A stretch of 64,000 bases of DNA from Paenibacillus sp. 37 (GTDB lineage: Bacteria > Bacillota > Bacilli > Paenibacillales > Paenibacillaceae). The notes under the pieces were generated by a model that saw only the letters and a program-made list of their open reading frames with translations, ran no database searches and was not told the origin of the DNA. Shown one piece after another: positions 1,184-4,011 of the stretch (positions are counted from its first letter, which is position 1; every line of letters starts with the position of its first letter). The stretch spans positions 3,410,001-3,474,000 of the forward strand of contig NZ_CP043761.1 of NCBI RefSeq assembly GCF_008386395.1, read 5' to 3'. Both the position numbers and the translations under genes were made by a program.

Positions 1184-1429
1184 TATCAATATGAATTAGA
1201 GCTTTCCAGCAGATAATTTTGACCACTTCACCAGGAAGTTAAGGCCATACGGACAGCCGGGTCAAACGCCGATTGGCAACTTACGTTGCTTTATTGATTG
1301 AGTTCAAAGCTCAAATTTTATAAGTTGGTTACTTTACAACCAGTGCAATTGCACATCAACTTGTGAAACGGTCAATAAGAGTGGTAAAGGCGAATTATTT
1401 GCTATATAGACTCTGATCCAATATTGATA
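1184..1429 (+). ncRNA. Large multi-branched structured RNA (unassigned candidate riboswitch/leader RNA)
   Basis: Nested complementary segments build one closed fold. P1a is 1184-1192 with 1421-1429 (9 exact pairs). P1b is 1195-1201 with 1411-1417. P2 is 1208-1218 with 1393-1403 (11 pairs, one G-U). P3 is 1218-1224 with 1260-1266, enclosing hairpins 1225-1239 and 1243-1258. P4 is 1267-1270 with 1389-1392. Inside P4 lie a hairpin at 1276-1289, then P5 1291-1299 with 1370-1378, which encloses a small hairpin 1300-1312 and a branched domain 1322-1362 with hairpins 1327-1341 and 1343-1354. P3 and P4 abut P2 with almost no linker, as in compact three-way junctions. Terminator-like hairpins follow, as in a transcription attenuator. 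I cannot match it to T-box, SAM, lysine, cobalamin, M-box or other classes I know. Confidence 0.7.
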
Positions 1430-1448
1430 TACATGAAGGAGCTTTCCG

Positions 1449-1476
1449 CCAAAGGAGTTCTTGTGAACTTTTTTGG
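1449..1476 (+). terminator. Hairpin with T-run in the leader
   Basis: A 12-bp stem pairs 1449-1460 with 1465-1476 around a TTGT loop; the 3' arm contains six T. It also buries an AAAGGAG sequence. It lies 20 bases after the folded RNA and may be a terminator or an expression platform. Confidence 0.5.
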
Positions 1477-1516
1477 TCATGGAGACTTCACGTCTTTTTT
1501 ATGATGTATATCGATA

Positions 1517-1566
1517 AGCAAGTGTGATGGTGCGCGATTGCGGGCATTTTTCACCTTGCTTTTTTT
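1517..1566 (+). terminator. Leader terminator (attenuator candidate)
   Basis: AGCAA (1517-1521) plus GGTG (1529-1532) pair with CACC plus TTGCT (1552-1560), a 9-bp stem with a 7-nt bulge. A small CGC/GCG hairpin sits in the loop and a T run follows. It ends 78 bases before the start codon of the polyamine gene, so read-through would be needed for expression from any promoter further upstream. Confidence 0.6.
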
Positions 1567-2883: not shown

Positions 2884-4011
2884 ATGCGGTTCGAGCAATT
2901 ACCGACACCATGTTTTGTTGTTGACGAGGCGCTTATCGAGAGAAACCTGAAAATCCTGAACGGTGTTATGCAACGTACAGGTGCCAAAATCGTGCTCGCT
3001 CAAAAAGCATTTTCCATGACTGCGATGTACCCGCTGATTGGAGAATACCTGAGCGGAGCTACGGCGAGTGGTTTGTATGAAGCACGCCTGGGCCACGAGG
3101 AAATGGGCAAAGAGAATCATGTCTTTGCTCCGGCATACCGCGCAGAAGAGATCGACGAGATTCTCTCCATCTGCGACCACATTATTTTCAATTCTTTTTC
3201 ACAGCTTGCAAAATTTAAGGATAAGGCGCTTCAGGCTGGCCGTAAGGTCGGCTTGCGCGTCAATCCAGAATGCTCTACCCAAGAAGGACACGAGATCTAC
3301 GATCCGTGTTCTCCGGGTTCGCGTTTTGGCGCGAAACAAGAAGATTTCCAAGCAGATCTGTTGGAAGGTGTCTCCGGACTACACTTCCACACACTGTGTC
3401 AGCAAAATTCAGATGATCTGGAGACTACGCTGAACGCAGTTGTTGAGAAGTTCGGACAATGGCTGCCACAAATGGAATGGATCAACTTCGGTGGTGGACA
3501 CCATATCACACGTGAAGATTATGATATTCCAAGACTGGAAGCATGCATCAAGCGTATGCAGAACGATTATGGCCTGGAAGTATATCTGGAGCCGGGAGAA
3601 GCTGTTGCGCTGAACGCGGGTTATCTGGTGACCTCTGTGCTGGACTTCCATAAAAACGGTATGGACATCGCTATTCTGGATACTTCAGCTACGTGTCATA
3701 TGCCGGATGTGCTGGAAATGCCATATCGCCCGCCGCTGATCGGTTCGGGAGAAGTGGGTGAGAAGGCTCATCTGTATCGCCTAGGTGGACAAACCTGTCT
3801 GTCTGGTGACGTGATTGGGGATTATTCATTCGATCAGCCTTTGCAAGAAGGCGACCGTCTGGTATTCGAAGACATGGCGATTTACTCCATGGTGAAAACC
3901 AACACGTTCAACGGCATGCCGCTTCCAGCGATTGCTGTTAAAAGAAAAGACGGCGATTGCGAAGTTGTCCGCGAATTCGGATATCAGGATTTCAAAATGA
4001 GGCTGGCATAA
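2884..4011 (+). CDS. nspC: Carboxynorspermidine decarboxylase
   Basis: PLP-dependent decarboxylase of the alanine racemase/ornithine decarboxylase fold (fold III), 375 residues, a normal full length. The PLP lysine is in IVLAQKAFSM near residue 40; the glycine-rich phosphate-binding strand WINFGGGHH and the C-terminal substrate motif around GDVIGDYSF with the dimer-interface cysteine in TSATCHMPD are visible. It removes CO2 from carboxyspermidine or carboxynorspermidine made by the upstream gene. The ATG is one base after the upstream stop, indicating translational coupling. A strong terminator follows. Which chain length is the true substrate cannot be told from sequence. Confidence 0.95.
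   Translation: MRFEQLPTPCFVVDEALIERNLKILNGVMQRTGAKIVLAQKAFSMTAMYPLIGEYLSGATASGLYEARLGHEEMGKENHVFAPAYRAEEIDEILSICDHIIFNSFSQLAKFKDKALQAGRKVGLRVNPECSTQEGHEIYDPCSPGSRFGAKQEDFQADLLEGVSGLHFHTLCQQNSDDLETTLNAVVEKFGQWLPQMEWINFGGGHHITREDYDIPRLEACIKRMQNDYGLEVYLEPGEAVALNAGYLVTSVLDFHKNGMDIAILDTSATCHMPDVLEMPYRPPLIGSGEVGEKAHLYRLGGQTCLSGDVIGDYSFDQPLQEGDRLVFEDMAIYSMVKTNTFNGMPLPAIAVKRKDGDCEVVREFGYQDFKMRLA

Follow-up and report, generated by a model that had tools for sequence, protein, structure and literature searches.

Riboswitches for polyamines have long been expected, and the validated spermidine class is narrowly distributed (PMC10853860; Salvail et al. 2023). According to the available part of PMC10853860, this variant of the SAM-I riboswitch targets ldcC, speE and speB in Gram-positive hosts and acts as an OFF switch by polyamine-driven transcription termination, in which it would resemble the RNA described below; the same account holds that additional polyamine riboswitch classes are still to be discovered. 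Two other candidate cis-regulatory RNAs are likewise found near polyamine genes in the part of PMC8632094 that describes them: the potE motif, which comes from Veillonella and environmental samples only and shows no good covariation, and the odc1 motif, an alphaproteobacterial hairpin with a uORF. A further line of work concerns a transcript of Streptococcus pneumoniae: SN20 was placed at 869478-869791, between SP0915 and SP0916 (PMC2887815), and equated with F59 and srn235 (PMC3395615), the sizes given being 318 nt for SN20 and 82 nt for F59 (PMC2887815, PMC3395615). SP_0916 is titled an arginine decarboxylase (PMC7531197), and in 2025 srn235/F59/Spd_sr49 was reported as a putative sRNA in 385 strains (PMC12323649).

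Here we analyze a leader RNA in the window, a stretch of 64,000 nucleotides of Paenibacillus sp. 37 to whose forward strand all coordinates below refer. Judged from the comparison of homologous sequences, the leader is a real, conserved cis-regulatory RNA. We consider it quite likely that it functions as a cis-acting transcription-attenuation riboswitch, specifically an OFF switch, for a polyamine, most likely spermidine.

Locus and fold of the leader

The leader (1160-1620) adjoins a two-gene polyamine operon. The first gene (1644-2882) codes for a carboxynorspermidine/carboxyspermidine dehydrogenase (CANSDH) with the saccharopine-dehydrogenase fold, for which PF16653 and PF03435 score above cut-off and NF043000 reaches 419.7 bits, under its curated cut-off of 800; the second, nspC (2884-4011), codes for the carboxynorspermidine/carboxyspermidine decarboxylase NspC (CANSDC; TIGR01047, 486 bits versus a cut-off of 409). 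The genome from which the window derives has a single match to the leader. A simple scan recovered no forward consensus sigma-70 promoter in the window; across 77 leaders, a sigma-70 promoter score of at least 10/12 is observed in 41, versus 6 of the 77 after one shuffling. Immediately upstream of the leader is a short reading frame (869-1090) with no Pfam match that resembles a gene remnant, and a frame at 50-694, with a TTG start, matches positions 238-431 of the 462 in profile PF00067 and hence the C-terminal portion of a cytochrome P450, which is either incomplete or cut by the window edge.

The conserved domain is a putative aptamer of 207 nt (1208-1414), which extends from helix P1 to a probable pseudoknot and scores 225.8 bits with our covariance model R1, the window's copy being among the source sequences of that model. 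The original prediction had drawn three long-range helices in this region and all of them are present: the outer helix P0 (1184-1192/1421-1429), an exact 9-bp match; P1 (1208-1218/1393-1403), with 11 bp including one G-U; and a helix of nine pairs, two of them G-U (1291-1299/1370-1378), whose conserved part, P4, spans 1292-1298/1371-1377. Inside P1 are P2 (1220-1224/1260-1264), which surrounds the hairpin P2a (1225-1229/1235-1239) and a possible CGG/CCG stem (1250-1252/1257-1259), so that the whole occupies 1220-1264; the hairpin P3 (1275-1290), which reads GGCAAC/GUUGCU in the window; P4 with the hairpin P4a (1299-1313); and P5 (1316-1326/1358-1368) with the hairpins P5a (1327-1341; GGUU/AACC) and P5b (1343-1354; GUGC/GCAC). 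P2, P3 and P4 had further been thought to join with almost no linker. In our helix names, from which the earlier numbering may differ, P3 and P4 do abut with a 1-nt linker, whereas P2 and P3 are 10 bases apart. Two features were absent from that first description, namely the likely pseudoknot between 1378-1382 and 1410-1414 and an antiterminator pairing of 1352-1365 with 1516-1536.

The energy of the window's copy is low for its composition: z = -3.65 for 1208-1414, with none of 200 shuffles as low, and z = -6.08 for 1160-1580, with none of 100 as low. Its individual helices are less distinctive. The longest long-range helix is unremarkable in a single sequence, being equalled in 5 of 60 mononucleotide shuffles, and enforcing the consensus helices yields -125.4 kcal/mol versus a minimum of -131.4, a cost of 6 kcal/mol, which means that the minimum-energy fold is not the consensus. 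Hence, helices drawn from the single sequence are unconvincing alone, and it is the comparative data that settle the reality of the fold.

For this comparison, 128 leaders were extracted with their flanks, of which 81 remained below 90% identity and 77 had a 3' end that could be found; 50 of these entered alignment A1 and 46 the MAFFT alignment A2, from which R1 was built (210 positions, 61 pairs). A third alignment, A3, comprises 82 loci aligned to R1 and is hence fitted to the model; for both A2 and A3 the shuffle figures serve as references and are not probabilities. In A2 with the pseudoknot included, standard pairs fill 94.8% of the pair cells and both-side changes occur at 19 of 66 pairs, versus a shuffled mean of 13.5. 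In A3, the values are 95.3% of pair cells and 32 of 61 pairs, with 334 cells of both-side change where shuffles give 99.5 and slid controls 20-82. The two alignments agree in the picture of covariation that they give: this is a conserved, structured putative aptamer with compensatory changes across homologous leaders, and the fold that had been proposed is borne out as real.

Pairs with both-side changes in A3 occur in P1, where they are strong (7 of the 9 pairs of the main block), in P2, whose outer pair is U-A in 49, G-C in 27 and C-G in 4 of the 82 rows, in P2a (5/5), P3 (5/6), P4a (3/5), P5a (2/4, with 99.0% of cells paired) and P5b (4/4); the last of these differs in register between clades, leaving 72.5% of its cells paired. 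The possible CGG/CCG stem shows none. P4 and P5 are nearly invariant: six of the seven P4 pairs are unchanged with 99.8% of cells paired, and P5 has 98.0% of cells paired and no pair with both-side changes, which places both helices out of reach of a proof by covariation. An independent view comes from pairing energies in the 77 leaders. The two strands of P1 pair with a mean of -10.0 kcal/mol within their own leader versus -7.5 when permuted among leaders, and the 5' and 3' flanks that form the outer helix with -19.1 versus -14.7 kcal/mol; in neither case does any of 500 permutations reach the own pairing. Conservation is at least 97% at 62 of the 207 positions, and a high share of such near-invariant positions is typical of metabolite aptamers.

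The exact segments AGAGU (1378-1382) and ACUCU (1410-1414) are shared by 70 of 82 rows; they would form a pseudoknot with P1 if both pair, and they are too invariant for a covariation test. As a separate observation, 29 of 81 leaders also have AGAGUC or GAGUCU upstream of P1, at a distance of some 12-45 nt from the GACC of P2, while 0.5 are expected from shuffles; pairing of this upstream AGAGUC with the 3' AGACUCU is possibly a competing state, alternative to the pseudoknot.

Relatives, distribution and gene context

The original prediction could not place the RNA in a known class. As regards a switch this stands, in that no description of it as a polyamine riboswitch was found in the open-access PMC literature, in which PMC2864571, PMC6429828, PMC12826042 and PMC4387999 were covered in part and two queries by the best 20 of 35 and the best 15 of 4,884 matches. 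It does not hold for a 54-nt piece of the RNA, which belongs to a streptococcal sRNA family. This piece (1220-1272), matched by RF02440 (SpF59_sRNA) at 67.9 bits versus a gathering threshold of 37.2, is the sole Rfam match in the window and comprises the 5' subdomain P2/P2a. The RF02440 model has 54 positions with the pairs of P2 and P2a only and is filed as gene/sRNA rather than as a cis-regulator; the element described here has about 207 conserved positions, of which RF02440 covers 54, and a terminator, and across the aligned loci conservation extends well past the Rfam model, which accordingly does not describe the whole RNA. Among 14 control genomes, that of Lactococcus lactis matches RF02440 too, as do at least 27 of 59 relatives and at least 18 of 398 genomes of the phylum (the window's genome counted). 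A scan of 15 further loci at gathering thresholds recovered RF02440 in 11, along with one TPP riboswitch elsewhere in the sequence of L056. Rfam 15 holds no second family that matches this RNA.

The described polyamine RNAs are set apart in different ways. The spermidine riboswitch keeps the four-stem SAM-I aptamer (in the available part of PMC10853860), whereas SAM, FMN and other riboswitch models gave no match in 1080-1680 at E-values up to 5; a SAM-I variant was accordingly rejected. An FMN switch, once suggested for SN20 from a short shared motif (in the relevant part of PMC2887815), was likewise rejected, as no FMN match is seen in the window at gathering and the controlled genes are not flavin genes. 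The architectures of the potE and odc1 motifs are unlike that of the present RNA, a distinction drawn from their published description (PMC8632094, in part) rather than from sequence.

Searches for further members were blind to gene context. A DNA-pattern scan of named genomes returned at least 120 stretches; among the matches listed, 91 passed a second motif filter, and 29 loci with neither of two extra motifs, mostly actinobacterial and proteobacterial by title, were dropped as chance. Overall, the filter retained 132 of 162 loci; one true member that it lost (L041, 112.9 bits) was restored for A3 and for the gene tally. Among the matches listed, the loci that passed include, by title, members of Paenibacillus, Bacillus, Neobacillus, Lederbergia, Robertmurraya, Pullulanibacillus, Acetobacterium, Sporobacter, Lachnospiraceae, Oscillospiraceae and Lactococcus, and the pattern and covariance-model searches together place the full RNA in both Bacilli and Clostridia. 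Surveys of more than 40 genomes ran with stricter filters that lose weak matches, so that their counts are lower bounds: R1 matches at least 25 of 398 genomes of the phylum (18 of 266 genera) and at least 66 of 147 genomes in the family of the Lactococcus carrying L085, presumably the Streptococcaceae, with two matches each in G549 and G555. The exact pattern of the 3' core had no match in the viral collection.

Within the window's own genus the leader is present in at least 47 of 60 genomes and the CANSDH gene in 59. Twelve genomes (G004, G006, G007, G013, G014, G020, G031, G032, G034, G455, G458 and G463) have a CANSDH that is 76-77% identical and no leader match; hence, the switch is dispensable. 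In three of these leaderless loci, Rfam gave no match and the best R1 match without filters (8.3 bits, E = 0.054) was not credible, and by eye the regions upstream in L176 and L178 contain just an ordinary-looking promoter and a short leader. From the sequences, such genomes would represent independent loss or replacement of the control.

To record the gene context, nine polyamine proteins and one methylenetetrahydrofolate reductase were used as tblastn queries against the downstream DNA; seven loci with short downstream sequence were excluded, and some loci are counted twice as they occur in two collections. The reference proteins for SpeD, SpeE and agmatinase score above their NCBIfam cut-offs and that for CANSDH below; PotA is above the TIGR01187 cut-off in L104 and just under it in L085; and the decarboxylase reference has only a weak match (80 bits) to the known models for decarboxylases, such that the label "Orn/Lys/Arg type" sets no substrate. 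With these queries, all 130 loci whose downstream sequence is long enough have a polyamine gene that starts no more than about 800 nt away, namely CANSDH in 67, the Orn/Lys/Arg-decarboxylase type in 30, SpeD (AdoMet decarboxylase) in 29 and PotA in 4; agmatinase genes are also frequent in the controlled operons, beside those for SpeD and the decarboxylase type. The context persists in 79 of 79 leaders after removal of those more than 90% identical. It is equally found in a context-blind draw from the phylum, where a polyamine gene is next in 25 of 25 matches including those at 27.9-44.5 bits, and in the family of L085, where 19 of 20 loci retrieved precede a decarboxylase-type or potA gene. 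The RNA is thus a cis leader to genes of one pathway. In the remaining locus of that family (L216), the gene behind the leader is not a polyamine gene but one for a transposase, identified by eye as IS200/IS605-like. L086 is the sole case seen in which speD is followed by a methylenetetrahydrofolate-reductase-like gene, again named by eye.

A search for second copies in 13 genomes gave a second match in three. Two of these are the Lactococcus that carries L085 and the Lachnospiraceae genome that carries L104, each with a copy before potA and another before a decarboxylase-SpeE-SpeB-CANSDH operon; the third (L204; 23 bits, E = 0.0023) has none of the polyamine genes sought beside it and was taken as chance.

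Terminator and antiterminator

By a loose criterion, a hairpin with a T run is found 3' of the fold in 81 of 81 leaders, some of these hairpins being within coding DNA. Of these, 79 also have an anchor in P5 and a tail that passes a stricter criterion; L085 lacks the anchor and L146 a qualifying terminator. In the window, two hairpins with T runs had been noted before the gene. The second of these is an intrinsic terminator (1516-1566, -22.4 kcal/mol), which a consensus scan requiring a short loop (3-8) did not list, whereas the first (1449-1476) is an accessory 12-bp hairpin of the predicted fold whose T run is inside the stem and which is not a typical terminator; similar hairpins are seen in L011 and L016. 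When the aptamer helices are enforced in the window, the terminator is intact in the predicted fold.

The 5' arm of the terminator has an alternative partner inside the aptamer. Over the 79 leaders, its best average partner is a 14-nt segment on the 3' side of P5b/P5, which corresponds in the window to 1352-1365; there it pairs with 1516-1536, the terminator arm that doubles as the antiterminator strand, in a duplex of -12.1 kcal/mol. The mean for leaders paired with their own arms is -12.2 kcal/mol, versus a median of -5.1 over all such segments, -10.0 with arms permuted among leaders (reached by none of 300 permutations) and -4.9 with shuffled arms. Within single gene classes, the own pairing is again unmatched in any of 1000 permutations for CANSDH (26 leaders), the decarboxylase type (26) and SpeD (22), and since no permutation reaches it inside any class, the role of shared ancestry is limited. 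The segment reaches -8 kcal/mol in 70 of the 79 leaders and falls short in nine; in L011, L016 and L060 the hairpin of best energy, and hence the one chosen as the terminator, was a different one. If the best segment of the whole aptamer is taken leader by leader, it falls at the expected offset of -14 to 0 in only 50, while 10 leaders have it at -15 to -19 and the other 19 at some other place.

The aptamer and the antiterminator are mutually exclusive, as are the antiterminator and the terminator, and this is the standard layout of an OFF switch. That the expression platform excludes the aptamer accordingly holds by computation, with exceptions among the leaders, and the matched pairing of terminator and antiterminator supports attenuation as the probable mode of control. 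In the proposed mechanism, RNA polymerase would make an aptamer of about 210 nt in which P1 closes a multibranched array of P2/P2a, P3, P4/P4a and P5/P5a/P5b, probably with the AGAGU/ACUCU pseudoknot. With ample polyamine bound, P5 and P5b would be kept, the terminator at 1516-1566 would fold and transcription would stop before the CANSDH and CANSDC genes (OFF). When polyamine is low, the 3' strands of P5b and P5 (1352-1365) would instead pair with 1516-1536 as an antiterminator and the genes would be read (ON). Protection by the ligand would be expected at the P4-P5 junction and in the 3' AGUAAAAGU region.

Probable ligand, rival explanations and variant members

The original prediction of a structured leader controlling polyamine synthesis is strongly supported by the gene context, the covariation and the matched terminator and antiterminator, its sensing part being putative. 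The gene contexts point to spermidine as the favored ligand, since it is the only compound that each controlled system either makes or, in the case of the importer, takes up. The same architecture might serve another ligand, such as putrescine, agmatine, cadaverine, decarboxylated SAM or a basic amino acid, and the frequency of SpeD, Orn/Lys/Arg-decarboxylase-type and agmatinase genes in the controlled operons is in keeping with this; however, many leaders precede CANSDH, on a route that consumes putrescine (whether or not CANSDC is seen in the sequence examined), and some precede a potA operon, so that spermidine alone would appear common to all. Repression by putrescine of the very enzyme that consumes it would be odd, which disfavors that compound in particular, and we judge a ligand from this group to be unlikely. 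A somewhat smaller chance attaches to an attenuator run by an RNA-binding protein or another factor reporting the polyamine status, with the same terminator and antiterminator and no direct binding of a small molecule. The terminator and antiterminator data would indeed suit any trigger that stabilizes P5/P5b. Against such a factor stand the size and branching of the element, the long stretches of invariant sequence inside it and its spread over Bacilli and Clostridia, all in the manner of metabolite aptamers, whereas protein-binding sites on RNA are usually small hairpins.

The alternative named in the original prediction was an independent ncRNA with its 3' end at the hairpins; such a molecule, acting in trans as a small RNA, is what the pneumococcal catalogs (SN20/F59/srn235) and the Rfam type 'sRNA' imply. 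Discrete transcripts have been reported between SP0915 and SP0916 (in parts of PMC2887815 and PMC3395615), and srn235 retains its synteny in 385 strains (PMC12323649, in part). A terminated leader would, however, give like transcripts; same-strand polyamine genes are found in nearly every locus examined, and these are different genes in different species; and the 5' arm of the terminator is matched to the aptamer strand of its own leader. With the gene association and an arm tuned to its own leader, we hold this reading to be quite improbable. Even less can be said for attenuation by a leader peptide through ribosome arrest. Proteobacterial speF leaders are leader-peptide attenuators of polyamine genes, and a short ORF with a Shine-Dalgarno-like sequence does occur in 18 of 77 leaders, that of the window included. 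Yet these ORFs are at no common position, a few start with MQIF merely by reading the conserved P1 sequence, and what is conserved is RNA structure; a conserved translated uORF is thus absent from the 77 leaders, and the peptide mechanism was rejected as extremely improbable.

The F59 name shared with the Rfam family and the place before SP0916 suggest that the pneumococcal transcript is the streptococcal member. More broadly, we think it probable that these RNAs constitute a large, widespread class of polyamine riboswitches, for which no relation to the spermidine riboswitch derived from SAM-I was detected and which controls both synthesis (the SpeD/decarboxylase/SpeE and carboxyspermidine routes) and import (PotABCD) across Bacilli and Clostridia, and that it was overlooked because its only part in Rfam is a dispensable 5' subdomain, entered there as an sRNA of streptococci. 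In this way, a cis-regulator can be concealed by a truncated family model. If so, a far larger and wider-spread polyamine sensor would have been in view for more than a decade as an unexplained sRNA, and the way in which Bacilli, Clostridia and streptococci control their synthesis and uptake of spermidine would become directly testable. The value of 0.05 that a screen lists for the lung fitness of mutants in srn235 and SN20 (in the pertinent part of PMC3395615) could then reflect a mis-controlled polyamine operon and not the loss of a trans-acting sRNA.

Some members depart from the common architecture at one end or the other. The AGAGU/ACUCU 3' module is altered or missing in L146, L148, L135, L085 and L046, and hence is not essential in all lineages. 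As other members (L172-L175) are without the 5' domain, the two groups together do not leave a defined ligand-binding core. L172 precedes a decarboxylase-type gene and L173-L175 precede speD, and none of the four has any Rfam match at gathering, RF02440 included. In these loci, and in L190 from the genus of L175, little or nothing of the RF02440 5' domain is present, and the 3' part, CUUGUGAA..GGUCAAUAAGAGU.. or close variants, lies immediately upstream of speD or of a gene of the decarboxylase type; L175 represents a natural minimal version of the element.
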